Assembly (NCBI RefSeq): GCF_035994185.1
Contig: NZ_CP108538.1
Coordinates: 7,133,501-7,197,500 of the forward strand
From: Streptomyces sp. NBC_01217
GTDB lineage: Bacteria > Actinomycetota > Actinomycetes > Streptomycetales > Streptomycetaceae
Direction: 5' to 3'
Length of the DNA stretch: 64,000 nt
The notes under the pieces are model-generated. The model did not search any database, was not told where the DNA came from, and saw nothing but the letters and a program-made list of their open reading frames with translations. Of this stretch, positions 11,261 through 28,500 are shown piece after piece. The position numbers and the translations under genes are program-made. The stretch's first letter is position 1. Each line of letters begins with the position of its first letter.

Positions 11261-11318
11261 GTTGGCGAGGCCGTACGGGACGCGCCCCGCCACGACGGGA
11301 AAGGCCAGGACTAAGGGC

Positions 11319-11741
11319 GTGGACGACAAGCACATGCAGATCGGCGAAGTTGCCGCGCGGACGGAGCTGTCCCTGCGCACCATCCGCCACTACGAGGAGA
11401 CCGGCCTGGTCATCCCCTCTGCCCGCTCCCAGGGCGGATTCCGCCTCTACACCGAGACCGACGTCGCCCGCCTCATGGTCATTCGCCGCATGAAGCCCCT
11501 CGGCTTCACCCTGGACCAGATGCGCGACCTCCTGGACGCCACCGACCGCCTCGACGCTGGCACCGGTCTCGAGGCCGCTGAACGCGAGGCGCTCCTGGAG
11601 CGCGTGCACACCTACCAGCAGGCCGCGGCCGAACAGGTCCAGAAACTGCGCGTGCAGCTCGCCCGGGCCGAGGACTTCGAAGCCACTTTGCGGGCCCGCG
11701 TGGAGCAAGCCACCCCGGCCGCTGCGGCGGCACGGGACTGA
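11319..11741 (+). CDS. MerR-family transcriptional regulator
   Basis: MQIGEVAARTELSLRTIRHY and EETGLVIPSARSQGGFRLYT form the winged-helix DNA-binding head at the N-terminus. A MerR-type linker (VIRRMKPLGFTLDQMRDLLD) and a long dimerisation coiled coil rich in Glu and Arg follow. There is no Cys-rich metal-binding tail, so it is probably not a metal sensor. The frame is open from 11262, but GTG at 11319, with AAGGCCAGGA upstream, puts the protein at 140 residues. A near-perfect dyad lies directly upstream. Its divergent neighbour is the SulP transporter, the most likely target. Confidence 0.85.
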   Translation: MDDKHMQIGEVAARTELSLRTIRHYEETGLVIPSARSQGGFRLYTETDVARLMVIRRMKPLGFTLDQMRDLLDATDRLDAGTGLEAAEREALLERVHTYQQAAAEQVQKLRVQLARAEDFEATLRARVEQATPAAAAARD

Positions 11742-12803: not shown

Positions 12804-13301
12804 TCAGAACGACCGGGGTCCGGCGTCGTCCAGTTGTACGAACGGGATGGCGCTGCCTGCGTCTCGGAATGCGGCCTCGCTGCCGTCGGCGGCAAGGTCG
12901 AAGAAGGCGCACAGTCGGCGGGCGGTCCGGGGGTGCCGCCGGCCGTAGCGTGCCATGATCTCGGCTCCGTCGTCCGGCGTGAGGAAGTAGGCGGTGACGG
13001 CGTGGTGCCGGTTGCCGAACTGGATGACCGTCTTCGGCTCTGCGCGCAGATTCAGGTACCAGTCCGATCGTGGCCCGAAGCCGGAGGCCACGGTCCAGCT
13101 GCCGCCGGCAGGATCGTGCGCCACGACTTCGAGAACCACGCGGCGGTCGAGCCCGGTGGCCCGGCCGGTGTGGTGCAGCAGGAGTAGTCGCTTGCCGAAC
13201 ACCGGTCCCAGCCCCATACGGAAGAGGTGGATCGGCAGCCGTGCGGCCCGGCGTCGCCATCCGGCCGGGAGTAGGGACGGCTTGGGGTCGGTTTGAGGCA
13301 T
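12804..13301 (-). CDS. Deazaflavin-dependent nitroreductase family protein (Ddn-like)
   Basis: The 165-residue product matches the F420H2-dependent Ddn/FDOR-B fold. It has an N-terminal amphipathic helix, the strand LLLHHTGRATGLDRRVVLEV, the core GGSWTVASGFGPRSDWYLNL with the conserved SDWYxNL motif that lines the F420 site, and a helix AEIMARYGRRHPRTARRLCA. Members reduce nitroaromatics or quinones using F420. The ATG at 13301 is preceded by GGGAAGGG. It is divergent from the phosphatase gene; a TTTGCA-type operator lies between them at 13387-13405. Confidence 0.85.
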   Translation of the reverse strand: MPQTDPKPSLLPAGWRRRAARLPIHLFRMGLGPVFGKRLLLLHHTGRATGLDRRVVLEVVAHDPAGGSWTVASGFGPRSDWYLNLRAEPKTVIQFGNRHHAVTAYFLTPDDGAEIMARYGRRHPRTARRLCAFFDLAADGSEAAFRDAGSAIPFVQLDDAGPRSF

Positions 13302-13386
13302 TTTCGCCCTTCCCGGGGGACTGAAATGTCTGCTCCTGGCCTCGATTGGGTAAAGGGTCGGGCCGAGAGGCGCTTCGTCAGGGAAA

Positions 13387-13405
13387 CCTTTGCATAGTCT
13401 AAAGG
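13387..13405. promoter_or_regulatory. TTTGCA operator, site A
   Basis: CCTTTGCATAGTCTAAAGG has five-base perfect arms (CCTTT/AAAGG) and a good left TTTGCATA half-site. It lies between the divergent nitroreductase and phosphatase-MarR genes. One of six related sites between 13.4 and 18.2 kb. Confidence 0.5.
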
Positions 13406-13462
13406 CGGGGGCGTCCGCCGCAAAGGCGGCTCTCGATCGATGCGACACCGATGGAGAACGTC

Positions 13463-14551
13463 ATGACCGTGAAGAGGCCGACGTCCAGTTCCGCTGTGCT
13501 GTTCTGGATGCCGGTGGCGGCGATGGTCGTGGTGGCCGCTGCCGATGTGCTCGCCGGCCCGGGAGTGGGTTTTCTGCCCTTGGTGTCCCTCGGGCCGGCG
13601 TTCGCCGGGTTGCTCGGCGGTTGGCGGCGTACGGCGCTGATCGGCGTGGTGGCTCTGGTGCTCTGCGTCGGACTCGGGCTGTACGACGGGTTGTTCGAGG
13701 AGCGCCGGGGGTTCACCGCGATGGCGTCGGTGGCGGGCGTCACCGGTGTCGGCATCGCGGCAGCGGTGATGCGCGGCCGCCGGGAGGTGGAGCTGGCCAA
13801 TGTGAGGTCGATCGCCGAAGTGGCTCAGCGGGTGTTGCTTCGGCCGGTGCCACGGACGGCGGGGCCGCTGCAGGCGGCTGTGTCCTACACCTCCGCCGTG
13901 GCGGAGGCACGCATCGGCGGTGACCTGTACGAGGTGGTCGCCTCGCCACACGGTGTGCGGGTGATCGTCGGGGACGTGCAGGGCAAGGGGCTGACCGCGG
14001 TGGAGACGGCGGCCGTGGTGCTGGGCGCGTTCCGGGAGGCGGCGCATGACGAGCCCGACCTGGTCGGACTCGGCGAGCGACTGGAGCGCAGCGTGGCGCG
14101 GGAGCTGGAGGGTGAGAAGTTCGTCACCGCCGTGCTTGCCGAGATCGCCTCGGACCGCGAGGTCGTCTTCCTCAACTACGGCCATCCGGCACCGATGGTC
14201 GTACGCCGGGACGGGACCTTGGACTTCCCGCAGCCGCCTTCTTACGCGCTTCCACTGGGCCTGGGCGCGCACGGGATCGAGGGACCCAAGCCCCACCGGG
14301 TGGCCTTCGCCCCTGGCGAGCAGCTGCTCCTGTACACGGACGGCGTCACCGAGGCCCGTGACGAGGGCGGCTCGTTCTACCCCCTTGGCGAGCGGGCGCA
14401 CCTACTCAAAGACCCCGACGCCCACGGCGCTTTGGAGGCCCTGCGCGCGGATCTGATGCGGCACACGGCCGGGCCGCTGCACGACGATGCCGCGATGCTG
14501 CTGCTCCGGTATCACGGGCATGGGGAAGGAAAATCTGTTCCCATCGAGTGA
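13463..14551 (+). CDS. Membrane-anchored SpoIIE-type PP2C phosphatase
   Basis: Three or four hydrophobic segments (about residues 10-105) anchor a cytosolic PP2C domain from about 140 to the end. Metal-binding and core motifs are present: ARIGGDLYEVVASPHGVRVI, VGDVQGKG, LNYGHPAP, LLLYTDGVTEAR and DDAAMLLLRY. Such RsbU/SpoIIE-like enzymes dephosphorylate anti-sigma-antagonist (STAS) proteins and so release sigma factors. There is no PAS or GAF sensor; the membrane part may be the sensor. ATG at 13463 (GGAG six bases upstream) is preferred to ATG 13451. The MarR gene follows after 34 bases, a likely operon. Confidence 0.85.
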   Translation: MTVKRPTSSSAVLFWMPVAAMVVVAAADVLAGPGVGFLPLVSLGPAFAGLLGGWRRTALIGVVALVLCVGLGLYDGLFEERRGFTAMASVAGVTGVGIAAAVMRGRREVELANVRSIAEVAQRVLLRPVPRTAGPLQAAVSYTSAVAEARIGGDLYEVVASPHGVRVIVGDVQGKGLTAVETAAVVLGAFREAAHDEPDLVGLGERLERSVARELEGEKFVTAVLAEIASDREVVFLNYGHPAPMVVRRDGTLDFPQPPSYALPLGLGAHGIEGPKPHRVAFAPGEQLLLYTDGVTEARDEGGSFYPLGERAHLLKDPDAHGALEALRADLMRHTAGPLHDDAAMLLLRYHGHGEGKSVPIE

Positions 14552-14585
14552 GTGGGCAGCGAGTTCGGCACGGTAGAAAGGACGT

Positions 14586-15122
14586 ATGCCGGAGCGCGAG
14601 ACCCCTGCTGGGGCCATGGATGATGTCGATGCTGTGACGAGGGCGGTGCTGACCGCGTCACGGCTGCTGGTGGCGGTCTCCGCCCGCTCCCTCGCCGAGG
14701 TCGAGGAGCGAGTGACCCTGCCGCAGTTCCGGATGCTGGTCGTGCTCTCCACCCGGGGCGCCACCAAACTGGTCGCGCTCGCCGATCTGCTCCAGGTGGC
14801 ACCCTCGACCGCCATGCGCATGGTCGACCGGCTCATCGCCGCAGGACTCGCCGACCGGCAGACCAACCCCGGCAACCGCCGCGAAACGCTGCTGCAGCTC
14901 ACGGCGGAGGGCCGGCGCACCGTCGAGGACGTCACCGCCCGGCGCCGCTCCGAGATCGCCGCCGTCGTCGCGCGGCTCCGTCCGACGCAGCGGCTGGCGC
15001 TCGTCGAGGCCCTCAACGCCTTCAACGAGGCGGGCGGAGAGCCCTTGGCCCCTGCTGCGGACGACCCGGAGCCGCACCCGCTCGGCTGGATCGTGGACGG
15101 CGCGATGGCGCACGACGCGTGA
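14586..15122 (+). CDS. MarR-family transcriptional regulator
   Basis: The 178-residue protein has the MarR winged helix: LPQFRMLVVLSTRGATKLVA, a recognition helix around LLQVAPSTAMRMVDRLIAAG, and the wing with DRQTNPGNRRETLLQLTAEG. N- and C-terminal helices form the dimer interface. The start ATG has GAAAGGA seven bases upstream. It is the second gene of the phosphatase operon. Several palindromes TTTGCAT-N-ATGCAAA lie before neighbouring genes and before the operon itself, so this regulator is the best candidate to bind them (inference). No Cys redox pair is obvious. Confidence 0.9.
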   Translation: MPERETPAGAMDDVDAVTRAVLTASRLLVAVSARSLAEVEERVTLPQFRMLVVLSTRGATKLVALADLLQVAPSTAMRMVDRLIAAGLADRQTNPGNRRETLLQLTAEGRRTVEDVTARRRSEIAAVVARLRPTQRLALVEALNAFNEAGGEPLAPAADDPEPHPLGWIVDGAMAHDA

Positions 15123-15181
15123 CCGCCTGCGGCTGAGAGTCCGGTTTCCGGTAGGTCGGCTCTTCTCCACGCCCGGAAGTT

Positions 15182-15196
15182 TTTGCATAAAGCAAG
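15182..15196. promoter_or_regulatory. TTTGCA operator, site B
   Basis: TTTGCATAAAGCAAG matches 13 of 15 positions of the perfect site E. It lies about 150 bases before the truncated membrane-protein gene at 15343, in the same relative position as site E has to the full-length paralogue at 16646. Confidence 0.55.
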
Positions 15197-15342
15197 GGAA
15201 TGGTGGACGTGGCCCTTCGCCGCCGAGTTCCGGCAACGGTGGCCACGCGAATGTGTCCGGTCGAAGGCAGGGCGGCCGGTCTGCCGCGGCGGCAGCACGG
15301 GCGGTCGCCGACGGGCTGAGAACGACGCAGGGATGTGCGCGC

Positions 15343-15588
15343 ATGCGCCGATGGCGCCGGCCTTCGTCCCACGCCGAGTCTCACCTCATGGCGCATCTGC
15401 GGTCCACGGTGTGGAGGCCCGCGGAGTTCGTCAGGCTGCCGCCCCGGTGGCTGGTCGGGGAAGGGCTCCTTGCGGGGCTCACGGTTCCGATCGTGCTGCG
15501 CGAGATGGGCACGGTACCTCTCGGTACGGACGACATGGGCGCCTGGAGGTACGTGCACACCAGCCGGGATAACCTTTGCAGTAGGTAA
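15343..15588 (+). CDS. Truncated paralogue of the membrane protein at 16646
   Basis: From ATG 15343 the product (81 residues) contains HLRSTVWRPAEFVRLPPRWL and a short hydrophobic stretch. This parallels HLRTTVWGPAEFVGLPPWGL of the 248-residue protein at 16646-17392. The match ends after about 60 residues, and the reading frame stops inside the next TTTGCA site, so the membrane and periplasmic parts are missing. The upstream DNA, including the operator, is also duplicated. It may be a non-functional leftover. Confidence 0.45.
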   Translation: MRRWRRPSSHAESHLMAHLRSTVWRPAEFVRLPPRWLVGEGLLAGLTVPIVLREMGTVPLGTDDMGAWRYVHTSRDNLCSR

Positions 15589-15589
15589 A
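15575..15589. promoter_or_regulatory. TTTGCA operator, site C (weak)
   Basis: TTTGCAGTAGGTAAA, followed at once by another TTTGCATA half-site at 15591. The two half-sites overlap the 3' end of the truncated gene and could serve the minus-strand zinc-ribbon gene's terminus or be a relic of the duplication. Confidence 0.35.
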
Positions 15590-15665
15590 GTTTGCATACC
15601 GCCATGCAGCGTGGGTCACTATGCGCTGGTTTCGGACCGGGGGCTGACGTGCGGCTCCGCCCTCG

Positions 15666-15896
15666 TCATGTTTCATGCGGACGCGCCGACGGAACGGGCC
15701 CCCGCCGAATGATACGGACCTCGTGGTTCTCGCAGGCGGGGCAGTGGGCAGACTGCCTACCGTCTAGGTGGTAGACGGGGGCGATCCGGTCGTGCTCGTC
15801 TACCGTTATGTCGATGTCGTACGTGCCGTTCCAGCCGTGCCCGCAGTCGAGACAGAGGAACGAGTAGTAGACGCAACGGGCGTGCTCTGCGTCCAC
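15666..15896 (-). CDS. Small zinc-ribbon-like protein
   Basis: The 76-residue product has CVYYSFLCLDCGHGWNGTYD and, 30 residues on, HCPACENHEVRIIRRG. The CxxC pairs suggest a zinc ribbon. The GTG start at 15896 has an excellent AAGGAGG seven bases upstream. A perfect TTTGCAC-A-GTGCAAA palindrome lies 50 bases upstream, in promoter position. The protein family is common in Streptomyces near universal stress and CBS genes, but its function is not known to me. Confidence 0.75.
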   Translation of the reverse strand: MDAEHARCVYYSFLCLDCGHGWNGTYDIDITVDEHDRIAPVYHLDGRQSAHCPACENHEVRIIRRGPVPSARPHET

Positions 15897-15945
15897 GACT
15901 GACCTCCTTGGGGTGGTCTGTCCATCGAGGTTCTGCGCTCCAGTT

Positions 15946-15960
15946 TTGCACAGTGCAAAG
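15946..15960. promoter_or_regulatory. TTTGCA operator, site D (perfect palindrome)
   Basis: TTTGCACAGTGCAAA, seven-base arms around one central base, 50 bases before the start codon of the minus-strand zinc-ribbon gene. Confidence 0.7.
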
Positions 15961-15985
15961 CCGATGGAAATGCCTCAAGAAGTGG

Positions 15986-16425
15986 TCAGGTGGCAGTGTG
16001 TACCGCGCGCAGCGCGCTCTGGCGGCTGAGTCACCCGACCGGGTTGCCGTGTGCCGACTCCAGCACGGGTACGCCGGTTCCCACTGCCGAGAGCCGGGAG
16101 TGCAGAGCCTGGGCGAGGGGCTGGTCGGCCGTGACGGGGGCCGGCGGCTCGGCGAGCTGCCCGACAACCGCCGGTGCGCCTTCCGGCTGTTCCGCAGCGC
16201 CTTCACCACCGCCTGGGCGACGACGCCGGCATAGTCTCCGGCCTCGTCGAGGACGGGGAGCGCGCTGCGGCCCGACAGGCTCAGCAGGTCGGCGGCGTCC
16301 GTCAGCGTCGTGAAAGCGTGCAAAGCTGAAGGCAGCGATTCCATGACTGCGCCGACGCGCTGTGGGCCTATCCGTGTCCCGGGGGCCGGGCCTTCGAGGT
16401 CGATGGCGCGGCGGCACAGGACTCC
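15986..16425 (-). pseudogene. CBS-pair gene, frameshifted and with internal stop; ClC-channel tail remnant
   Basis: The minus strand aligns along its length with the intact CBS gene at 18617-18979. AIDLEGPAPGTRIGPQRVGA, then MESLPSALHAFTTLTDAADL and SGRSALPVLDEAGDYAGVVA are in one frame. A one-base shift near 16195 moves GQLAEPPAPVTADQPLAQAL into another. A TGA then replaces the Trp codon of PVGWLS (16031-16033), before the tail LSRQSALRAVHTAT. The N-terminal stretch before the CBS pair resembles the linker after the last helix of ClC chloride channels, so both copies may descend from a channel's C-terminal CBS module (inference). Confidence 0.7.
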
Positions 16426-16483
16426 TGGCGCCCACGTGACACACCGGTGTCGCCACCCCGGTTCTTCTCTGTCACCGCATTAT

Positions 16484-16498
16484 TTTGCATAATGCAAA
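16484..16498. promoter_or_regulatory. TTTGCA operator, site E (perfect palindrome)
   Basis: TTTGCATAATGCAAA, a perfect 7-1-7 dyad. It lies 148-162 bases before the membrane-protein gene at 16646 and upstream of the minus-strand CBS pseudogene, so it could serve either direction. Confidence 0.7.
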
Positions 16499-16645
16499 GG
16501 AAGGGTGAGCGGGAGGCTTCACTGCCGGGGTCCGGCAACATCGGCCACGCAACCGTGTCCGGCCTGGGGCAGGGTGGATTCCCGCCCCGAACGGCAAGAT
16601 GCGAGGCCGCTGACGGACGAGAAACGACGCTAGGGGGTGGGACGC

Positions 16646-17392
16646 GTGCGCCGACTGCGTCACTTCCCGCGCGCGGCGGAACCCCATCTTTCGACCCACT
16701 TGCGAACCACGGTGTGGGGGCCTGCCGAATTCGTCGGCCTGCCGCCCTGGGGGTTGGTCAGGGAGGGGATCTTTGCCGGGACGCTCGGTGTCCTGACCAT
16801 CGTTGGCACAGGAGCCCTCGGGGTCTGGACCGGTGCGTCCGCGCTGGCTAATGGCGAGGCGGGCCTGGTGGGTGCCGGCGCCCTGGCGCTCTATCTCGCC
16901 TTCGTGCGGGCTGGGCGGGCACTGATCGGCATTGTCGCGGTGCTCGGCGTGTGTCTGGCACTCCATGCTCCGCAGGCTGCGGCGGGCGTCGTGCTGGCCG
17001 ACCGGGGGCGCGTGCAGTCCGTGGTAGTCACATCCGTTGACAGCGGTCGGCAAGCTGCCGCGGGCCGCAGCCGCTACCTGTGCTCGGTGGCCGACCAGGC
17101 CGGCGTACCGCTCAAGGTCCGCATCTGGCGGGGCTGTGGCCGGACCACCCGGCCGGGTGACGCGCTCGCCGTCTTGTACGACCCGCAGGGGCGGGTATCG
17201 CCGCGCGGACTGGACGCGGGGACGGCGGCGACGGGGCCACTTCGTGACCTCGCCGCTCTGGCCGCCGCGCTCGTCGCCGGATGCGTGATCGCGGTCGTAC
17301 GCTCGCACCGCCTCACCCATGCGCTCTCCGCTCCGTCACGCCCCTTCACCGATGCGGATGTGTCAGATCACTATTCATCCGACCACCGGTGA
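16646..17392 (+). CDS. Membrane protein with DUF3592-like extracytoplasmic domain
   Basis: A cytosolic N-terminus with HLRTTVWGPAEFVGLPPWGL leads to two or three hydrophobic segments (about residues 45-120). An outside domain follows with a Cys pair (RYLCSVADQAG...RIWRGCGRT) and LAVLYDPQGRVSPRGLDAG, like the YDP motif of DUF3592 domains. A last helix (about 210-228) and a basic tail end the protein. GTG at 16646 (AGGGGGTGG upstream) is preferred to GTG 16637. Function is unknown. A perfect TTTGCA palindrome lies upstream and a truncated paralogue at 15343. It converges tail to tail with the DUF4142 gene with no gap. Confidence 0.65.
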   Translation: MRRLRHFPRAAEPHLSTHLRTTVWGPAEFVGLPPWGLVREGIFAGTLGVLTIVGTGALGVWTGASALANGEAGLVGAGALALYLAFVRAGRALIGIVAVLGVCLALHAPQAAAGVVLADRGRVQSVVVTSVDSGRQAAAGRSRYLCSVADQAGVPLKVRIWRGCGRTTRPGDALAVLYDPQGRVSPRGLDAGTAATGPLRDLAALAAALVAGCVIAVVRSHRLTHALSAPSRPFTDADVSDHYSSDHR

Positions 17393-18127
17393 TCAGCCCG
17401 TCGTGGGTGTCGGGGACGGCGTATGCACGTTCAGGTCCGGACGCGCTCTGAGGGCGAGGACCGGTGTTCCGGGCTGCGGTGGCGGCGGGGTGAGTTGGGC
17501 CTTGGGAAGTTTCGGCGGAGTGGTCTGCTGGAAGTTGACCTGGTCGAAGTTGACCAGGCCGGTCTTCTCCAGCACGGTGATGTGATCCAGAACGGTGTCG
17601 TTGGCCAGGTCGGCCAGCTGGCGCACCAGGGTGTTCTCGGTGCTCGCGCGGATCTTGGCGATGACCGGGAAGATCTGCCCGTGGGTCACGCGCATGATGT
17701 TGACCGCGGTGGAGTCGAATTCCTTGCCGTTCTTCGAGTCGGCGGTCGCCACGAACTGCTGCTGCTGCGGGGTCGCTTGGTTGGGGAGGGTGATGTTCAG
17801 CTCGGGGGCGATCCTTCGGCACAGCTCGTCGAGGCCGGCATGCCCGACGACCAGGTGCGCGCCGGCCTCTTTCATGGCCGCTGTCGTGCCCCGTTGCATC
17901 GCAATTTCACCGAGGGGGTACTCCCACAGTCCGGCCGAGCGGACCTTGACCACGAAGTCCCGGTCGGCCTCGGTCAGCGGGCCGTACTGGGTGTTGGCGA
18001 TGATGCGCGAGGTGGACGTGGTCGCGTTCTGCACGCCGACCATGGCGGGATAGGCGAGCGCAGCGAGGGTCAGGATCAGCGCACCGACCACAAGGGTGGT
18101 TCCTATCCAGTTGCGCGAGTTGGGCAT
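17393..18127 (-). CDS. DUF4142 domain protein, exported or membrane-anchored
   Basis: An N-terminal hydrophobic helix (about residues 8-30) anchors or exports the 244-residue protein. The DUF4142 helical bundle spans about residues 50-190: LTEADRDFVVKVRSAGLWEY, LGEIAMQRGTTAAMKEAGAH, then AVNIMRVTHGQIFPVIAKIR. A Pro/Gln-rich tail follows. DUF4142 proteins are ferritin-like helical bundles of unknown role, often stress-induced. The ATG is at 18127. A degenerate TTTGCA site lies 80 bases upstream. Confidence 0.85.
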   Translation of the reverse strand: MPNSRNWIGTTLVVGALILTLAALAYPAMVGVQNATTSTSRIIANTQYGPLTEADRDFVVKVRSAGLWEYPLGEIAMQRGTTAAMKEAGAHLVVGHAGLDELCRRIAPELNITLPNQATPQQQQFVATADSKNGKEFDSTAVNIMRVTHGQIFPVIAKIRASTENTLVRQLADLANDTVLDHITVLEKTGLVNFDQVNFQQTTPPKLPKAQLTPPPPQPGTPVLALRARPDLNVHTPSPTPTTG

Positions 18128-18616
18128 GCTGCCTCCAGGCGTGAGCGGTTCTGCACGCCAGGGGGTACGGACGCGTCGGGTGGATTCATCATTGCGCTGG
18201 GTAAAATTTGCATCCTGCTATGTGTTGTGCGTCACGCCGTAGCCGGGTGGGCGATGCGGAACGGGTTCATGGCAGTCATGGCCAGGGCCAACTCGCCATG
18301 CTGGTCGATAGCTTCGGCGCCGTCTCGCACGACCTGCAGGTCCTGCCTGGAGCGCTGGGGCGTGCCCGCAACCTTCCGTCGTCCCCCCGAAGGGTGGGCC
18401 TGTCGGCACGCCAGGCTTCGCGGGGCAGGTAGGGCTTTGTGAGCGTGTCACAGGCGCCGGTCTGATGGATGGTCGTGCATCCGGGCGGTCGGCGGCCTCC
18501 CGCCGGCGCCCGGTTGGACGGGGCGCAATCCGTCGACGGCGGGTGGGTGCACAGTCCGCGCGGCGCCGAGGCCGTCGACCGGGTACCCGAGGAGGCGCGC
18601 GTGTCGGGGCGCCGCC
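18128..18616 (-). other. Gap between DUF4142 and CBS genes
   Basis: No gene is supported. The stretch holds TTTGCA site F near 18207 and short open frames in all phases without ribosome sites or recognisable products. It may contain decayed gene pieces. Confidence 0.4.
18207..18221. promoter_or_regulatory. TTTGCA operator, site F (one good half-site)
   Basis: TTTGCATCCTGCTAT keeps the left half and the TGC of the right half. It is 80 bases before the DUF4142 start codon on the minus strand. Confidence 0.4.
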
Positions 18617-18979
18617 TTATGCGACGGGGTGCACGGCCCGTAGTGCGTTTTGGTGGCTGAGCCAGCCGACCGGCTTTCCGTGCTCGGGATCCAGGACCGG
18701 CACCCCGGTTCCCCCTGTCGAGAGCAGGGCGTGCAGAGCCTGCGCGAGGGTCTGGTCCGTCATGACGGGTGGGGGTGGCTCGGCGAGTTGCCCGACCCGC
18801 GTTGGTGCTGCTTCTGGCTCTTCCGCGAGAGCCTCGGCCACGGATTGGGCGGTGACGGTGCCGACGAATTGGCCGGTGGTGTCGATGACCGGAAGTGCGC
18901 CGTGGCCGGACAGGCTGAGCAGGTCGGCGGCGTCGGCGAGTGCCATTGATACCGGTAGCGGCGAGGGCAGGGGTTCCAT
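18617..18979 (-). CDS. CBS-pair protein
   Basis: Starting at the ATG at 18979 (GGAG five bases upstream), the 120-residue product has two CBS motifs: LADAADLLSLSGHGALPVID with FVGTVTAQSVAEALAEE, and MTDQTLAQALHALLSTGGTG with VPVLDPEHGKPVGWLSHQNA. The open frame continues upstream to a TTG at 19054 with LRRRGVDLEGPARG, which looks like the linker of a ClC-type chloride channel, but the channel itself is absent. The protein is therefore probably a detached regulatory module. The copy at 15986-16425 is its broken paralogue. It lies next to, but outside, the DISARM operon. Confidence 0.75.
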   Translation of the reverse strand: MEPLPSPLPVSMALADAADLLSLSGHGALPVIDTTGQFVGTVTAQSVAEALAEEPEAAPTRVGQLAEPPPPVMTDQTLAQALHALLSTGGTGVPVLDPEHGKPVGWLSHQNALRAVHPVA

Positions 18980-19075
18980 GACGGCTCCGACGTGCTGGGT
19001 GCCGATCTGCGCGCCACGAGCCGGGCCTTCGAGGTCGACGCCGCGCCGGCGCAACTTGACTGCGGGCAGCCCACG

Positions 19076-19807
19076 TCACAGCTGCTCATACAGAGAGTTT
19101 TCCGCCTCCCTCAGCTCGCGTTCGACGGCTTCGGTGAGATTTGGGTTGTCGATGAGGACGCCGAACTCGACGTTGTTGTTCTCCGCGCTCCAGGAGAAGT
19201 TCGCGCTAGTCACCAGGAGAAGGTGGTGATCGATGGCAAGGAACTTGGCGTGGTTGCGGACGTGTATGCCGTCGAATTTCTTGGTTCGCCAGACCTCGGC
19301 CGGCGCCAGGTGCGCGGCGACTTCTGCGGTCGTCGGGGACCAATGTTGTCCGCTGTCGTCGGCGGCCCGGGTGTCCATGTAGACGCGGACAGTGATGTCG
19401 TCGCGCCGTGCAGCTTCCCGTAGTGACTTCCAAAGCGTCGAGCTCCGTTGGAAGTTGAAGGTCGAGCACGTGATGGCGTGGCGCGCGCTGTCGACGAGGC
19501 GGCTCACCGAGGTGGTGAGCGGCCCGGTCTGGGCGAGGTGCCCGGGCATGGTCCACAGCGGTGACAGTGTGGTTGGCAGTGCCCGGGCCCCCTCGATTGC
19601 ACGTAGGACTTGGATCTGTTGGTGCGATGCCGCGTCGTAGACGACTACGGCCTGCAGCAGACGCCGGACTTCTGCCCGCTGGCCGGCCGCCACGACTTTG
19701 AGCGCGGTGCTGAGGGTGTCGCCGTCGGCCAGCCGGTCCGCGATGCCTTTGGCCTCGGTTCCGGAGAGGAGCTGGCCGAGTCGTCGTGGCGCGTCTGTCT
19801 CACTCAT
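19076..19807 (-). CDS. drmC: DISARM protein DrmC (phospholipase D-like)
   Basis: Last gene of the class 1 DISARM operon. The 243-residue product has an N-terminal helical region and one PLD active-site motif, VRNHAKFLAIDHHLLLVTSA, with NFSWSAENNNVEFGVLIDN after it. This is HxK(x)4D followed by the conserved S/N-rich strand. A single motif means that a dimer would form the active site. In characterised DISARM, DrmC is dispensable for protection, and its role is not settled. It overlaps drmB by eight bases and ends the operon. The flanking CBS gene is separated by 97 bases. Confidence 0.9.
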   Translation of the reverse strand: MSETDAPRRLGQLLSGTEAKGIADRLADGDTLSTALKVVAAGQRAEVRRLLQAVVVYDAASHQQIQVLRAIEGARALPTTLSPLWTMPGHLAQTGPLTTSVSRLVDSARHAITCSTFNFQRSSTLWKSLREAARRDDITVRVYMDTRAADDSGQHWSPTTAEVAAHLAPAEVWRTKKFDGIHVRNHAKFLAIDHHLLLVTSANFSWSAENNNVEFGVLIDNPNLTEAVERELREAENSLYEQL

Positions 19808-21857
19808 GGACTCGGAAGAACCCGAGGTCGCTGCCGGGCAGGTCGAGGAGGAAGCGGCGATCGAGGAAACGGTTGGCGCGCTCGCAGGAGGTCTCTGATG
19901 CCATTACACAGCAATGGCAGGCGGCGCCGTGGAGGAAGTCCTCGGGGTCCTGCGGAGTGCGCTTGGAGCAGATGGGGTCGGAGGAGCAGCGCGTGGCTTT
20001 GCTTAGCGCGCTGTCGACGACTCGCTGGAGGCGAGAGGGCTCGCTGAGCTGCACGAGGCCGCCGAGGGTGCCGTCGCTGTCGGAGGCGGTGGTGCAGATG
20101 AGAAGGCCAGCTGATGGGTCGCGGCCGTCTGCGGCGGGCCAGGCGTAGAGGCGTTCGCTGAGGCTGGCGGCCGAGTATCCACAGGTGAGGGCGAGTTCGC
20201 GGATCAGGATGTGGGCGAAGGTATGAACGAGCCAGTAGCGCGGGGGCTTCAGGCGGGTGTCGGGGTCGACCTTGCCTGCGGTGTCGGAGAAGCGACGCTC
20301 GAAGTTCCTGCGGTGCGCGTCGCGATGGGACGTCCACACGCCGGTGTCCAGGACGCGCTTCTCCCAGGTAGCGACCGCGTTCTCATCGAGCTGGATGAAG
20401 ATCCCCTCACCCCGGTCCTCGGTCGCTACGGTCCAGGCCGGTCGCGACGTGCGGGTCAGCGGGGCCAGCCGGCGCGGGAGGTCGCCGACTCGGTCCATGT
20501 CGTCGATGCGGGTGAAGCCGACCAGGGCGTTCACCTTACGGAGGCGCTCGACCGCGAGGACGCGGGTGATTTCTGGCTGCAGAGTGCCGCCTCGCTCGCG
20601 GTTGGCGAGGGTAAGTCCGCTCTTGGGGTCCTCGACACGGGTGCCGACGATGTCGCGCAACAGGTAGCGCCATTCGGGGACGAGGAGGTCGACCGGGTCC
20701 CAGTCGCGGAGCTTCTCCTCCTGCTCCTCTGGAGTGTCTGTGGGCGCGGAAGCAGCCTGCAGGACTTGTTCCAGCTCGTGGTCGGACAGCCCGGTGACGT
20801 CGACGCCGCCGTCCATGCCGAGCAGGTCCCTGATCAGGTCGAGGCTGACGCGGTACTTGGCGAGTTTGTCGCCGAGCGCGGTGCGGACTCGGTCGGCCAG
20901 GTCGCTGGCCTTCTCCTCCTGGGACTCCGGCATGACGACGATCGACTGGGTGGCCGGGAACCACAGGTTGGATGCGCCGACGAGCATGAGGCGGGATTCG
21001 TTGCGGCAGCCCTTGGGCTCGAAGGCATCCAGGTGGGGGTGGCGTCCGCGGCACTGCGGAAGCTTCGCCTTGCCGGCCTCTCCCTGAGCCTCGTTCATCG
21101 GGCGCCGCAAACCGCAGGATGCGCAGTGGATGACAGCCGAGGCGCCCTTGCCGGCGGTCCGGTCGACCATCTTCATTGCGGGCAGTTCCGCCTTGCTACA
21201 CGGCTGTCCGCGGTGCACCCACAGGTCGTACGGGAACTCATCCAGGTGCCCGTCCACACAGGCCAGCAGGTAGCGGGCTGGGATGGCGGTGCGCCGCATC
21301 GGTTTGCGTGGGCCGGCTCCCGCGCGTCCGGTGCACTTGGCGTGTTCGAAGACGGCCAGGTCCGTGCGGAAGGGATGCGTATTGCGGTAGTCGAACTGCG
21401 CGAGAAGCCCGAGCATGTCGCAGCCCGTGCACCGCAGCCACTGCGGGAAGACCCGCGAGGGGACGCCGAGGTCGTTGCCCTCGGCGGACCGGCTGTACTT
21501 CTTCGGCTGCCAGGGATAGGGCCGCAGCTGCACGTCGGGGGAGCGCAGCATCATCCGGACCACGTCACGCAGGCGCGGCGCGTGGATCTGCGGAGGCGCG
21601 GAGTCGCGCCGCTGCCAGATGCGGTCCCACTCGTCCAGCCCGGTGGGCATGATCGTGAACTGCGGCAGGTCCATGATCGCGCCGGGACCGTAGGTGTAGA
21701 GCAGGGAGGAGGGGCGGGCCGAACCGACTTTGGCGCGGTTGTGCTTGGTGGCCTTCTCCGCCTCCTGCTCCAGGTCGCCCAGCGGGTCGACGGCGTGAGC
21801 GACCTCGTGGAGGAATCGCGTCTCGTCACTCACGAGTTTTCCTCCGGCATCTGCCAC
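19800..21857 (-). CDS. drmB: DISARM protein DrmB (DUF1998)
   Basis: The 685-residue protein opens with VGSARPSSLLYTYGPGAIMD, the usual DrmB start. Cys clusters follow around residues 140-275 (RCTGCDMLG, VIHCASCGLRRP). The DUF1998 core comes in the last third: YWLVHTFAHILIRELALTCG, SERLYAWPAADGRDPSAGLL, and the zinc cluster GAACHCCVMASETSCERANR. DrmB forms a complex with the helicase DrmA that recognises incoming phage DNA and is partly autoinhibited by a trigger loop. It overlaps drmA's end by 28 bases and drmC's start by eight, so translation is coupled. Confidence 0.93.
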   Translation of the reverse strand: MADAGGKLVSDETRFLHEVAHAVDPLGDLEQEAEKATKHNRAKVGSARPSSLLYTYGPGAIMDLPQFTIMPTGLDEWDRIWQRRDSAPPQIHAPRLRDVVRMMLRSPDVQLRPYPWQPKKYSRSAEGNDLGVPSRVFPQWLRCTGCDMLGLLAQFDYRNTHPFRTDLAVFEHAKCTGRAGAGPRKPMRRTAIPARYLLACVDGHLDEFPYDLWVHRGQPCSKAELPAMKMVDRTAGKGASAVIHCASCGLRRPMNEAQGEAGKAKLPQCRGRHPHLDAFEPKGCRNESRLMLVGASNLWFPATQSIVVMPESQEEKASDLADRVRTALGDKLAKYRVSLDLIRDLLGMDGGVDVTGLSDHELEQVLQAASAPTDTPEEQEEKLRDWDPVDLLVPEWRYLLRDIVGTRVEDPKSGLTLANRERGGTLQPEITRVLAVERLRKVNALVGFTRIDDMDRVGDLPRRLAPLTRTSRPAWTVATEDRGEGIFIQLDENAVATWEKRVLDTGVWTSHRDAHRRNFERRFSDTAGKVDPDTRLKPPRYWLVHTFAHILIRELALTCGYSAASLSERLYAWPAADGRDPSAGLLICTTASDSDGTLGGLVQLSEPSRLQRVVDSALSKATRCSSDPICSKRTPQDPEDFLHGAACHCCVMASETSCERANRFLDRRFLLDLPGSDLGFFRVHE

Positions 21858-24800
21858 TTAGGGGCATAGTCAGGCGCCCGGTACACCAGACGTTCCTTGA
21901 TCGGGCTCACCAGCAAGTTGATCTCCGGCTGAACCTCACGCATTGAGTTCGCCACGATGAACGGAGGCGCGTCCCGGGTATCGATGCCAGCCTTGGCGTT
22001 CTCCGCGCTCATCATCAGCGCGTCGTGCCGACTGTCGTCCAGAACCTTTTCGTAGACCAGGGACTTACGCAGCTCAATGAGGTGTTTGCGCCGCTTGCCC
22101 CACTGGTCGAGCCGGTTCTCCAGGCGTAGGCGGGCGCGGTCGGCCGCGTCCTCATCGCCCGCCCTTGCGATCCGACGCACGAGGGCTTCGATGAGCTCAC
22201 CAGCGAAGTGCTGCTCGGCCTCGATACGCGCCGCGCCGTCCTCTGGGGACAGCCCCTGACCGTGGCCAGCCCTGGCAGCCTGCAGGACCCTGGCCGCGCT
22301 GACCAAGACACCGTCCAGGCCGCGTTCCAAGGAGGTCACCGAGAACGGGGTAACCGACAGCGCCTCGACCTGAGCATAGAACGTCTCGTGATAGTGACGG
22401 AACTGCTCGAAATGGGCGAGGTCCCTGGGCCGAGCCCAGTTCCCCAGTGCGAGAATCAGCCCTGGCCGGTCGCCGTCCCGGCCGACGCGGGAAGACGCCT
22501 GGATGTACTCGGCGGTGTTCTTCGGCTGGCCGACCACGAGCATCAGACCGAGCCGGGTCACGTCGACGCCCACCTGCAGCATGGAGGTGGCCAGCACTAC
22601 GTCGTACGGGTTCACCTCGCGTGTGAGATCCGGCTTCTTCGCCTCCCGCAAGGCGCGCCGGTTGCGCTTGCCCGCCGTGGAATCGAAGCCGGGATCAAAC
22701 GACATAGCCATCTGGTCAAGCGTCGCGGTGATGTCGGCGCTGGCCACCCGTGACGTCAGCTCGGCAACGTGCAGCGAACCGAAGTCGGTGCCGGTGCGGC
22801 GAGGCAGCTTCGACCAGGGGCGCCCCTTGGCGAGCGCAGTCTGGATATCGTCACTCATATAGCGCGCCATGCCCGCCAGTTCACGGGTGGCGCTGAAATA
22901 GCCGACCAGGCTCATATACGGATCTGCCACGCTGCCCGAGCGGTCAATCAGCAGTTGCCCGCCGGCCATGAGGACCTCGGCAACCCGGATCTCCGCCGTG
23001 GTCAAACGCACACCTGTCGTGCTGACCCCGACGTACCGGCGCCCGGGATTCTTCTCGGAGACCGGGATCTCCTTGGAGAAGAACGTGTTCCCGGCGTCCA
23101 GGACCTGCGGCGGGAAGATGGTGACGTCCCGCCCATACAGGGCACGCACCTGGTCGGACGCGTTGCGAGCGGTGGCGGTGGAAGCGACAAGGAGCGGGCG
23201 CACCGGGCGCCCGTCCTTCGTCCGCCAGTCGGTCATCACGTCGATGGCCACCTCGAACAGACCGACCGTGGTGCCGAGGGCTCCCGTAATCAGGTGGAGT
23301 TCGTCCTGGATGACGAGATCCGGGGGCCGCAGCCGCGCAGCCGGATGTACGGGGGCGGCCGGGTGGCCGTCCTTCTTGGGGTGTTTGCTGCCGTCCTTGA
23401 TGGCGCACTGCTGATAGTCGGGGTGGACGAAGCCGTGCCGCTCGCAACGCCGCGAAACGTGTCCGAAGAGCGAGGCGGCCTCGCCCTCCCGGGCCAGGCG
23501 GGCGAACTTGTCCACCGTAGCGATGACGAACGCCGGCGCGAGCCGGTAAATCTCCTCGTCCACCGTGAGCACCGGCAGCCCGTCGGGGACCTCACCGCCG
23601 TCGGCGAACGGGCACTCGGCCAGCTCGTCACCGCAGTACACATACACCCTGCGCAGCGCGGGCTCCGTGCGTACATCCCGCGCCTCGACCCGGGTCCCGC
23701 ACCACGGGCAGCGCTGGATCTGCAGCACCGTCAGCCGGTAGCCACGGCCCCCATGGGCCTTCTGCAGCTGATCGGCAGCCTCGTCGTACCGCTTCGGACT
23801 CACATCCGTCCCCACCCACAGCCCGATACGGAACGGCTCGTCCCCCCACGTCGCCACGTCATCGCGCCGCGCCAGCTCGGCCGCGCACACCAGCGTGGTG
23901 GCACGCTGGAACTGCTGAGCAGTGAGCAGGCGCAGCGTGTACCGCATGAGCACGGCCACCCCGGAGCGTCCGTCCAGGGGGCCGTCAAAGGCATCGACGA
24001 CGCCCTGACGGCGCCTGATCGCGAAGGTGTACGCGGCAAGACCGAGATACGCCTCCGTCTTGCCACCACCAGTCGGGAAGAACAGCAGCTGCGCCTTGGC
24101 CAGCTCTCCCGACCGTTTCTCCGCCGCCGGATCGGACAGCATCGGCAACTGCATTAGCACGAAGGCCAGCTGGAAGGTACGCCACGAATGCGCCCGTTCC
24201 TTATTGTCGGCAAGGATCGCTTCGCGGGCCTCGTCAATGCCCTCCTCGGGTGCGCTCGCTCGCCGCTCCGCGACTTGCGACTGCACACGCTGATCGGCCA
24301 TCACCCGGTTCATGAACCGGAAGCAGCGCAACGCTTCCTCGTCCCCGAGAAGAAACTCCAGTCCGTCGGCGAGCTGGCGCTGTACTCGGCGTGCGTCCCC
24401 AACCGCTTCCAGTCCCTCGGACCGCAAATGATCCGGAAGAGCCTCGGCCCTCTGCTGCTCGTTGTCCAACCAGGCCGTGTAACCCGCGACGATCGGTTCA
24501 AGTCCTGTGCGTAGCTCGCCGGTTGATGCTCCCTGGAGCTTGCGCATGTCCAATAGGGCCGCGCTGATCTCCTCTGCGGCCGTCTGCGGCGTCTCGCTCA
24601 CCGGCAGCCATGTCGTCCAGACCTCGCTCGCCCTGCGTGCCCCCTCGACGGTCTTCCAGTCCACCGAGCAGGTTCGACCGTGAGCGAACTCCAGACGATT
24701 GCGGTACTGCAGCCGCAGCCGACGCAGCTCGTCGTCCTGCTCCTCACGCGTATCGAGAAGTACGTCGTTGACCGGCAGGAACACCTCTGCCCCGCCTGCC

Positions 24801-25582
24801 GACACCGACAGCTTCGTCTGGTACAGCCATGCTTCAACCGGGATCTTGCGCGGGGTCTCCCGGTCGTTGCAGAGCGCCACCTCTATCAATCGGCAGCCAC
24901 GCTCGGTGTCGTCGTAGCGATCCACCCGGAGCACGATTTTGTCCTTGAGTGTGATCTCCGTCGTACGGGACGGCCCCAGGTCAGCGACCTTGATTGTCTT
25001 GGCGATGGCGTGGGGGGTGCGCTGGAAACGGCGGAAGGCAGGAGCGGGCGCCTCGCCCTCGCTGGCGTCTACGCCTTCACCACGCTTCTCCTTCACCGGC
25101 TCGTACGTGCCCCACGAGGCGGTGACCGTGAACTCGTCCAGGTCGTCGGGGATCTGGCACCGAAGCCCCATTGACGCCGGGATCATCAATCCGCGTTTCT
25201 GCGGCTGGTCCTCGACCTCGTCCTCATCCGAACTGGCACTGCTGTCATCGACCGCGGTCAGCGGCACACCCCGGCTCTCGGCGGCGTCCACGGCATCGCC
25301 TACGTCGCTCGCGGCCTCGTCCGAGCCCGCCTCGCCAGGATCAGCTCGGCCGGCGGTCAGCCGCACGGGCGCGATCCGACCGATCAGGTAGGCCGAGTCG
25401 GGGACACCTTCGAGGACCTCTTCCGGGCCGTTGGCCGGGCCGAGGAGCTCACGCTCCAAGATGTCGACCAGGTTCTCGCGGGCCGTCCAGGAACGGTCGT
25501 CGGGGTCAAGGGCGAGACGATAGGGCGGGGCCTGGAGGGCGCCGGTGACGGACTGGGCGCTGTTGCGCTGGGGGGTGGTCAC
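21830..25582 (-). CDS. drmA: DISARM helicase DrmA
   Basis: The 1250-residue protein is a superfamily 2 helicase. Walker A is LLFFPTGGGKTEAYLGLAAY near residue 500. The DExx box is PDLVIQDELHLITGALG near 760, with DELH in place of DEAH. Motif III lies around LLVASTATARNASDQVRALY, and the C-terminal RecA motifs end with QASSRVGRDGDRPGLILALG near 1030. The long N-terminal part carries Asp/Glu-rich linkers. DrmA moves along DNA and, with DrmB, senses 5' ssDNA ends of invading phage genomes. GTG at 25582 overlaps drmMI's stop (GTGA). Confidence 0.95.
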   Translation of the reverse strand: MTTPQRNSAQSVTGALQAPPYRLALDPDDRSWTARENLVDILERELLGPANGPEEVLEGVPDSAYLIGRIAPVRLTAGRADPGEAGSDEAASDVGDAVDAAESRGVPLTAVDDSSASSDEDEVEDQPQKRGLMIPASMGLRCQIPDDLDEFTVTASWGTYEPVKEKRGEGVDASEGEAPAPAFRRFQRTPHAIAKTIKVADLGPSRTTEITLKDKIVLRVDRYDDTERGCRLIEVALCNDRETPRKIPVEAWLYQTKLSVSAGGAEVFLPVNDVLLDTREEQDDELRRLRLQYRNRLEFAHGRTCSVDWKTVEGARRASEVWTTWLPVSETPQTAAEEISAALLDMRKLQGASTGELRTGLEPIVAGYTAWLDNEQQRAEALPDHLRSEGLEAVGDARRVQRQLADGLEFLLGDEEALRCFRFMNRVMADQRVQSQVAERRASAPEEGIDEAREAILADNKERAHSWRTFQLAFVLMQLPMLSDPAAEKRSGELAKAQLLFFPTGGGKTEAYLGLAAYTFAIRRRQGVVDAFDGPLDGRSGVAVLMRYTLRLLTAQQFQRATTLVCAAELARRDDVATWGDEPFRIGLWVGTDVSPKRYDEAADQLQKAHGGRGYRLTVLQIQRCPWCGTRVEARDVRTEPALRRVYVYCGDELAECPFADGGEVPDGLPVLTVDEEIYRLAPAFVIATVDKFARLAREGEAASLFGHVSRRCERHGFVHPDYQQCAIKDGSKHPKKDGHPAAPVHPAARLRPPDLVIQDELHLITGALGTTVGLFEVAIDVMTDWRTKDGRPVRPLLVASTATARNASDQVRALYGRDVTIFPPQVLDAGNTFFSKEIPVSEKNPGRRYVGVSTTGVRLTTAEIRVAEVLMAGGQLLIDRSGSVADPYMSLVGYFSATRELAGMARYMSDDIQTALAKGRPWSKLPRRTGTDFGSLHVAELTSRVASADITATLDQMAMSFDPGFDSTAGKRNRRALREAKKPDLTREVNPYDVVLATSMLQVGVDVTRLGLMLVVGQPKNTAEYIQASSRVGRDGDRPGLILALGNWARPRDLAHFEQFRHYHETFYAQVEALSVTPFSVTSLERGLDGVLVSAARVLQAARAGHGQGLSPEDGAARIEAEQHFAGELIEALVRRIARAGDEDAADRARLRLENRLDQWGKRRKHLIELRKSLVYEKVLDDSRHDALMMSAENAKAGIDTRDAPPFIVANSMREVQPEINLLVSPIKERLVYRAPDYAPKWQMPEENS

Positions 25583-28500
25583 TCGTCGCCCTCCTCTTCC
25601 TCGGTGGCTTCATTGTTGCCGGTGGGACTGACAACTCCCTGCGAGGCGGCACGGCGATGGTTCTCTTCGAGGAGGCGGTCGAGGATCTCCACCCGGGCGG
25701 CCGGACTCACCGTCCAGCGTTGCACCTGCCGATAGGTGTGGAAGTTGTGGTCCAAGGGGAGGCCGTCCCAGCCGTAGGCGACCATGACGGCTTGGTCGAG
25801 CTCGACGTGGATCTCGCGGAGGCGAGCGACGTCGGCGTCCAAAGAGCCATCAATGTTTGAGTCGTTTACCAAATGGTAAAGTTTGGTCAGCCCCAGACCG
25901 CGACGGAGCATGATATTTTGCCGCTCCACATTGAGAAGGCTCCCGATTTCGGACAGTCTATCGCTATGTGCTGGGCGCGGGAACGTTTCGAATACGTCCG
26001 ATGGGGTGTAGCGAATATCGGCGCGCATGGTCGACCCGTGCGTGATTGCCCACAGCTGATGCAAACTTGAGGACAGCACCGCCTGATCGGAGTAGGACTC
26101 CGTGGCAAAGACGACGGTAGCCTCGCTAGGGATGGGCCCTTTTTTTACCCTGCACGGCATCACGGTCACGGAGTGCCTTGTTAGAACGAGAAATTCGCTC
26201 AACTCTGAAATCGCTGCCCTCATTGCAGGGCGCGCCCTAAAGAACAGCCACCATGGGGCGTCCCTGACTGCCTTCGATTTCTGCGCCCGTTCTCCTTTGA
26301 CTTCTTCTAGGATCCGATTAAACGGTAGTGGGTACTCCTGGGCGGCAGATTCTGTGCGGTCGTTGAAATCAATGATCCAACGGGAAGGTGAAGAATTCGG
26401 GCGCGAATTCAAGTCTTCGCCATTAAGGTAGGGGAACAAGACCTCGGCGTTCTTGGCGTCCGCCTTCAGCCACTCTGCAGCCTCCTCCTGCGTGATTACG
26501 AAACCGCCGCCATATGGTTTGCATCCTTCAAATGTAACGCCTCGATTCTCGATCAGTTTGACTGGATGCCCCTCGACTCGGCCGCTCGCCTCCAGAAGGG
26601 TCGAGATTCGCCTGACTGGGACATCATCTGCCATTCGCGACGCCTCGATTGAGATCTCGCCCAGGCTCCCCCACACTGCGGCGTATTCCAAGTTGGCACT
26701 TACCGCAGGCCAGGGGCGACTCTGCGTCGCCCGGGTAATAGTGAACCCGTTACTAGCGATGAGGTCTAGGCCCGTCTCTCGGGTATCACCCTGGGCAATG
26801 GTATTGGTCGCAATGAGGCCGAGGTTGCCCTTTAGGGTCAGGAGTTCAGTAGCGCGAAGGAAGAAATAGGCCACGATATCTGCGCGGCCACCACCTCGTC
26901 CACCTGCCAGTACGTAGCTGAACCAATCCCGAACGTTCCCGCCCAGCGCTCCGGAAATCTTGGTCCCGCCTAGGAACGGCGGGTTCCCGATCACGGCGTC
27001 GAACCCGCCTCGTTCCATTACATCCGGCACCGCCAGAATCCAGTGCAGCGGCTTCCACCGCGCGTAGTCCGTCGTCACCGTCGGAGTAAGTCCGACCTCC
27101 TGGATGCCGTCGAGCATGGTCCGATCACGGTCCGTCTCCTCGCCTCCGGCGGGGTACGCGGTCTCCACGGCGATGCGCAGGTTCTCGTACGCTGCCTTGA
27201 GCTGCTTCCCAGGCTTGCCGCCCCACTGCAGCCCTGCCGCGATCACACCATCGGCGACGTCAGCGAGTTGCTCGGTCAGTTCCTGGTAGCGGCGCCACTG
27301 GCGACGCTTGGTGGCGGCCGACCGCTGCGGGTCGTTGTCGTCGACCTCGCTGGCGAGCTGGCGACGCAGGCGGGTGGCCTGGTCCAGAATGTCGTCTACG
27401 TCTAGGGCGAAGACGCTGAGCTGATTGCCAGCCGCGGCCGGGTCGATGTGGAGGCGGCGTAGCTGGTCGGCGTCGGTCAGACCGAGAAGGGCGTTGCCGT
27501 GCAGCACCTTGTCGTCGACGAAGGAGAACGGGAGCTTCGGGTCCAACGACACCAGCCACAGCGACAGCTTGCACATCTCCACGGCCATGCCGTTGATGTC
27601 GGCGCCGTACAGGCAGGTCGCGACGACGGTCCTTATGGCGTGGACGAGCAGGTCGTGCGGTGTCCTTCCGTACGCCACCCCCTCGCGCTGCCATGCCTCG
27701 ACGAGGCGGTCGGCTAGGTAGCGGGCTGCGGCCACGAGGAAGGCGCCCGAGCCGCAGGCGATGTCGGCGATGCGCAGTTCGAGGATCTGGTCGGAGTCGA
27801 GTGGCCGCCATGCATCCTGGTTGGCGGTCTGATGCGGCCCGGGTGCGTAGACGAGAGGCTCGAGCGCGTACCGGACGACTTCCTCGGCCAGCGAGCGCGG
27901 CGTGTAGTGCGCGCCCGCCGAGGCCCGCGAGGGGGTCTCCACCAACAGGACACCGCCGGGCATGACGACGAGGGGACGGCCTCGCAGGTCACGGCGGATG
28001 ATGCCGATGAACGGGCGTAGCCGCTCGCGTAGTTCAGGGTCATCGGTGACGTCGCGTAGGGCGATCTCGATGTCGTCAAGGGTCTCGCCCGCCTTCAGCG
28101 CCTTGGTGAGGGCGGCCTTGCTGGACGGCTTAGCCGCCGGCTGGTTCACCTTGACCCAGGCGAGGATCGCATCGGCCAGCGCGGCTTCGGTGCGCTTGGC
28201 CTGGCTGAGTTCTTCGAGCGTGGCGAGGGGGACCTCAGGTTCGGAGCCCGCGCTACCGGTCAGGCCGACAACGATCTCTTCGGCGGGCTCGCAGGAGTAG
28301 CCGAGGAGACCCTCGTAGATGTAGCCGATCTGCTCGACGTCGATGTCGCGGAATGAGATCCGGCGGGCCCCGCCGGGAAGTTGGGCGATCTGGACAGCGC
28401 GGAGGACTTCGAGCATGACGCGGTCGCTGACCGTGATGGCCAGAGTGTCCTGGGAGTCACAGGCGGTGAGAAAGCCGAAGCGGGCGGGGTCGAACAGGGA

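Follow-up and report, generated by a model that had tools for sequence, protein, structure and literature searches.

We describe a new, conserved candidate MarR regulon, though not a new kind of system, in Streptomyces sp. NBC_01217, centered on a palindrome that recurs within a 64,000-nucleotide stretch of contig NZ_CP108538.1 (positions 7,133,501 to 7,197,500, hereafter the window). The palindrome, of the general form TTTGCA-YNR-TGCAAA, lies beside an operon that encodes a SpoIIE/PP2C-type phosphatase and a MarR-family regulator, and before several neighboring genes. We consider it very probable that the MarR protein (14586-15122) acts as a dimeric repressor on these sites at its own and neighboring promoters. 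Binding of the MarR protein to the palindromes, as predicted from sequence, is well supported because the sites cluster in the genome, are conserved gene by gene, co-occur with the MarR gene and are found, in their core, beside some MarR genes outside the genus. The regulon proposed in the original prediction, which comprised the phosphatase-MarR operon and the nitroreductase, zinc-ribbon, membrane-protein and DUF4142 genes, is supported in that the sites are kept before these same genes in relatives, track the regulator and accompany diverged MarR genes. The features of the locus are given below; the palindromes are called operators in the predicted sense, ORF stands for open reading frame, and the values after domain names are E values.

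12804..13448, minus strand: F420-type nitroreductase-family gene, longest ORF (Pfam PF04075, 2e-12; TIGR00026, 1.6e-20)
13389..13403, plus strand: self-operator TTTGCATAGTCTAAA between the nitroreductase gene and the phosphatase-MarR operon, an asymmetric form kept in relatives
13451..14551, plus strand: SpoIIE/PP2C-type phosphatase (PF07228, 7.9e-43), with an N-terminal part that is hydrophobic by eye
14586..15122, plus strand: MarR-family regulator, the proposed repressor of the sites (PF01047, 3.3e-13, 49.8 bits versus a cut-off of 24.6; best solved relative Rv1404, PDB 2nyx, 6.2e-44)
15182..15196, plus strand: partly decayed operator before the truncated membrane-gene copy (two mismatches)
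15253..15588, plus strand: ORF containing the truncated membrane-protein gene copy (tblastn piece 15340-15546, 47% identity)
15575..15605, minus strand: relic of a DUF4142-type double operator, 15575 plus 15591 (one mismatch to the double-operator pattern)
15666..15896, minus strand: gene for a small zinc-ribbon-like protein (CxxC pairs by eye; no match in a Pfam scan)
15945..15959, minus strand: perfect operator TTTGCACAGTGCAAA before the zinc-ribbon gene (no mismatches)
15998..16413, minus strand: probable remnant, in two frames, of the CBS part at the C-terminal end of a ClC channel gene (two tblastn pieces)
16484..16498, plus strand: perfect operator TTTGCATAATGCAAA before the intact membrane-protein gene (no mismatches)
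16637..17392, plus strand: conserved membrane protein whose homologues have upstream sites, family not assigned by Pfam
17393..18127, minus strand: DUF4142 protein gene (PF13628, 3.8e-15)
18191..18221, minus strand: intact tandem double operator before the DUF4142 gene, halves 16 bp apart, including 18207
18617..19054, minus strand: CBS-domain ORF (PF00571, 5.5e-14), probably what remains of the C-terminal end of a ClC channel gene

Clustering of the palindrome in the window and the genome

We scanned with the pattern TTTGCANNNTGCAAA and used the same pattern, reversed, as the control. All six sites that had been predicted are present, with coordinates off by 0-2 bases: those at 13389, 15182, 15575 and 18207 have two mismatches each, and those at 15945 and 16484, claimed as the two perfect 7-1-7 dyads, have none. 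Two partner half-sites, absent from the earlier list, lie at 15591 (by 15575) and 18191 (by 18207), each 16 bp apart. Within the window, 11 matches were found at up to three mismatches versus a mean of 5.1 in shuffled sequence, and 2 of 100 shuffles reached 11; because this excess is mild, the claim of clustering rests on the genome-wide count. The 9.03-Mb genome contains three sites with at most one mismatch, all of them inside the window (reversed control, one), and 21 sites with at most two mismatches (reversed control, 16). Seven of the 21 fall in the window and six in the 4.8 kb of 13389-18221, where about 0.01 would be expected per stretch of that length; the corresponding Poisson probability of about 5e-16 is post hoc, as the sites had been seen before the stretch was picked. 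The genome scan that had been proposed as a check of the original prediction thus reveals a strong local excess at 13389-18221.

The third of the sites with at most one mismatch, at 26518 (one mismatch), was weighed as a regulon member but set aside, since it falls within the coding region of the drmMI methyltransferase and probably reflects chance. That gene belongs to a set of DISARM defense genes adjoining the locus at 19076-32816 (DrmC, DrmB, DrmA, DrmMI and DrmD, all with strong PADLOC matches), which we take to be class 1 from their gene content.

The sites are placed as had been proposed between the nitroreductase gene and the phosphatase-MarR operon and before the zinc-ribbon, intact membrane-protein and DUF4142 genes, but the site at 15182 fronts a truncated gene copy and the one at 15575 a gene copy that has been lost. 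The longest nitroreductase ORF extends over the self-operator, and the true start probably lies beyond it. DNA alignments within the window pair 15124-15556 with 16429-16875, and 15540-15665 with 18156-18295, so that the window holds two partial, diverged copies of a conserved block with the membrane-gene and DUF4142 promoters. Copy one retains the truncated membrane gene, the partly decayed operator at 15182 and the double-operator relic (15575 plus 15591) with no DUF4142 gene. An operator that has decayed at the dead membrane-gene copy and is perfect at the live one (16484) is the pattern expected from selection on binding, as far as this one genome can tell. In relatives, the CBS segment equivalent to 15998-16413 forms the end of a ClC gene, and the product of 18617-19054 matches positions 444-570 of the 577 in a ClcB-like model, below the cut-off of that model. 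Because both CBS pieces match the C-terminus of the relatives' ClC genes, the ClC gene seems to have been lost from this block.

Conservation of the sites in Streptomyces

For comparison we used the best 80 of the 286 MarR relatives listed, taken from named Streptomyces loci; the closest named MarR relatives are from Streptomyces in 80 of these 80 loci. At least one site with at most one mismatch is present in 58 of the 80, and the 128 sites found in 1.25 Mb (none with the reversed pattern) include 36 in the kilobase that starts at the MarR start. A count made with no motif in hand, of all 6-base palindromes with gaps of 0-10 in the intergenic DNA of the 80 loci, ranks TTGCAT-N-ATGCAA first, with 66 copies in 43 loci. 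In 38 of the 80 loci a site lies downstream of the MarR gene; its columns have a mean identity of 97%, a figure favored by selection of the sites at up to two mismatches, versus 50-54% in the 40-base flanks. The spacer columns TAA, on which the pattern places no demand, are conserved too, as is a final G where the pattern has A. At the position equivalent to 15182, relatives with a site mostly have TTTGCATAATGCAAG.

The window contains the membrane-gene and DUF4142 promoters in two diverged versions, which could suggest that the sites arose as an artefact of repeats or duplication within a single mobile island. This explanation is very unlikely and was set aside, since the flanks diverge and the sites do not; moreover, the flanks of the site differ from one gene class to the next and cannot be aligned beyond the palindrome. 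Alternatively, the palindromes might be core-promoter elements, with CATAAT serving as the -10 box, and the form seen most often before the ClC and membrane-protein genes does include these letters. However, conservation is symmetrical in the two arms of the palindrome, forms at zinc-ribbon genes such as TTTGCACTGTGCAAA lack a CATAAT-like box, and the motif shows specificity for these loci; we regard the sites as very unlikely to be core-promoter elements.

Sites with at most two mismatches were then assigned to gene 5' ends in 82 records (the 80 loci, the window and one plasmid). They are present at 38 of 40 membrane-gene, 24 of 25 ClC, 13 of 14 zinc-ribbon and 31 of 45 SpoIIE/PP2C 5' ends, and at 25 of 35 nitroreductase 5' ends, mostly as the divergent site common with PP2C. 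The frequencies for a flavin adenine dinucleotide (FAD) monooxygenase (7/7), a GlxA-like oxidase (7/8) and a permease-like gene (2/2) are not independent because these queries were found through the sites; the permease-like protein was named by eye and has no Pfam match. With the reversed pattern, the count was 0 in all ten gene classes. Single sites precede only 19 of 48 DUF4142 genes, a low count because these promoters carry a pair of weak sites 16 bp apart: such a pair, at up to seven mismatches in total, fits 33 of the 48 DUF4142 5' regions, the window included (reversed control, 0). The double-operator pattern, drawn up after this promoter class had been seen, has only two matches in the genome at up to three mismatches, namely 18191-18221 and the relic at 15575-15605. 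In the six gene clusters present in at least five loci, the sites lie at a median of 26-93 nucleotides before the nearest possible start codon, as for many repressors. By these comparisons, the regulon in relatives would be larger than in the window, with the addition of the ClC channel, the FAD monooxygenase, the GlxA-like oxidase and a permease.

Some relatives have genes for CopC-CopD or GlxA-like copper proteins after operator sites (L160, 3992-5833; L148, 11254-13191), hinting at a link to copper.

The membrane protein (16637-17392) had been labelled DUF3592-like, a label with no Pfam support: the Pfam scan of the protein gave no match, and scans of 30 members of the family gave only two single-member matches, at E of about 0.03, to other families. 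Its predicted structure combines long helices with a small beta domain and has a mean predicted local distance difference test score of 76.9; Foldseek found nothing at E <= 0.001 for this model, and the weak matches, judged from 50 of the 377, were mostly of the ribosomal S12 and IF1 type.

Linking the sites to the MarR protein

Of the 295 genomes from the genus, 117 encode a MarR homologue at E <= 1e-25. The exact core TTGCAYNRTGCAA occurs in 67 of these 117 versus 9 of the 178 other genomes (p about 2e-24, a value inflated by shared ancestry), and the reversed core in 6 and 13, respectively. With a looser pattern, we divided the genomes into those with a strong MarR (best E below 1e-70; n = 58), a weak MarR (n = 59) and no MarR (n = 178). 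At least one site is present in 44, 29 and 33 of them, respectively, and at least two sites in 32, 13 and 5; the reversed looser pattern gives at least two sites in 11, 12 and 29. Among the 75 exact core sites listed, out of a total of 148, 57 have a listed MarR homologue no more than 10 kb away. We inspected 13 of the 18 that are farther off, and three precede, by eye, zinc-ribbon (L109, L131) or membrane-gene (L130) ORFs in genomes that also encode a MarR homologue; the others, inside mechanically called ORFs or before unrelated ones, are probably chance occurrences. Outside the genus, the core with at most one mismatch lies within about 600 bp of 9 of 38 MarR genes whose products are 41-64% identical to the window MarR, as compared with a mean of 0.6 and a maximum of 3 in 60 first-order randomisations. 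Three of the nine come from a single other genus (g4, family f4), which contributes 14 such loci; there the core, with one mismatch, lies beside genes whose products are 53-56% identical to the window MarR (L236, L237, L241).

Besides shared ancestry, several observations weigh against control of the sites by the local MarR. Fourteen of the 58 strong-MarR genomes have no site at up to one mismatch, although five of them (L055, L056, L057, L059 and L092) have a two-mismatch site in the MarR locus, and the exact core is missing from 17 of the 58. Likewise, the gene has no site nearby in 29 of the 38 MarR loci outside the genus. The MarR gene itself has a site at its start in only 3 of 81 cases, a rarity that would be explained if MarR is transcribed from the phosphatase promoter. 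Finally, the same genome encodes a second MarR (L047, 10001-10522, about 2.8 Mb away) that is 66% identical to the window MarR, and no site with up to two mismatches occurs in the 20 kb around it; with its similar DNA-binding region, this paralogue might bind the window sites.

One could envision that another regulator, such as this paralogue, binds the palindromes, leaving the local MarR as a passenger or a competitor. The very similar DNA-binding region and the strong-MarR genomes that lack sites would agree with such a scheme. Nevertheless, the sites track the local MarR gene across the genus and partly beyond it, and the surroundings of the paralogue are free of them, so we consider it unlikely. 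The local MarR had also been described as the only regulator nearby, but a MerR-like ORF (by eye) lies close to the region as well, at 11262-11741, though a homologue turned up in just 3 of 61 other records.

A model for the regulon and its relation to known MarR systems

From the sites, their conservation and their co-occurrence with MarR, we infer binding by a dimer, repression and an order of response as follows. A MarR dimer would bind TTTGCA-YNR-TGCAAA in the phosphatase-MarR promoter, which is shared with the divergent nitroreductase gene, and would also bind the membrane-protein, zinc-ribbon and DUF4142 promoters and, in relatives, those of the ClC channel and of further genes. Once a signal releases MarR, the whole gene set would be induced together. 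The self-operator TTTGCATAGTCTAAA, with one perfect half and one altered half, is probably weaker, so that the MarR operon could respond first, whereas the two weak sites 16 bp apart at DUF4142 may need two dimers. The self-site is listed in 30 of the 80 relatives, in 29 of them identical to the window letter for letter, and this upkeep suggests a deliberately weaker operator. The exact form is present at 28 of the 31 PP2C 5' ends that have a site, and this locus is its sole match in the genome at up to one mismatch.

On a Streptomyces plasmid (L046, 9709-10247), a gene for a STAS-domain protein directly follows a weak site, TTTGCACAGGGTAAA, near a phosphatase-MarR operon, and the same letters occur at L085 13083 and L090 13078. 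The STAS-domain protein could be a partner-switch target of the phosphatase.

What the signal might be is suggested by the relationship to Rv1404 and by the ClC gene. Acid or envelope-ion stress is the leading guess on these grounds, albeit a weak and doubtful one. The presence of ClC in relatives would fit acid or chloride stress. In ClC proteins, the second Glu of the EE pair has a role in proton transport; when one ClC protein (L206) was aligned with a solved relative, Leu took the place of this Glu, which weakens the acid reading.

The analysis assigns a defined operator sequence, a list of targets and a proposed regulator to genes that are spread through Streptomyces, among them DUF4142 and a membrane protein with no Pfam family. 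Because the gene set is tied to the Rv1404 branch, the signal can be tested in harmless soil bacteria. Literature searches on the gene set, Rv1404 and the letters of the operator, over a collection with only part of the subscription literature, listed no title or abstract opening that describes the operator or the regulon, and searches with four 13-letter operator variants returned six papers, unrelated by title.

Palindromic promoter sites are usual in the MarR family, and such sites are found here, by sequence comparison, at the regulator's own operon and at its targets. With three other MarR repressors of solved structure, E. coli MarR, PcaV and CouR, the window protein has the MarR domain in common; the sequence similarity is weak (E of 1e-3 to 3e-5). 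The likeness to Rv1404, which is at the protein level, is clear over most of the length (residues 4-155 of both proteins, of 178). Passages of four papers tie Rv1404 to acid stress and to neighboring genes (PMC6536590, PMC5526998, PMC3756022, PMC13002591). Passages on Rv1404 in two others (PMC3317779, PMC10312376), and a reference in a third (PMC9044949), contain nothing on an Rv1404 operator, and the main text of PMC4301838 does not mention Rv1404. A broader interpretation, to which we give somewhat less than even weight, takes the core TTGCAYNRTGCAA as the binding site ancestral to an Rv1404-type MarR branch that spans the actinobacteria. In Streptomyces, this branch would have recruited envelope and ion-stress genes in a reassorting set, would couple repression to the SpoIIE phosphatase encoded in the MarR operon, and would set the order of the response through graded operators (the asymmetric self-site, the single strong sites and the weak double site). 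The targets differ: those of Rv1404, according to a passage in PMC3756022, are methyltransferases, whereas the window set consists of a SpoIIE phosphatase, a nitroreductase, and membrane, zinc-ribbon and DUF4142 proteins, joined by ClC in relatives. MalR of Corynebacterium glutamicum, as described in PMC6536590, is likewise a MarR-type regulator in an actinobacterium and is linked to envelope stress, a likeness that we draw from its description.

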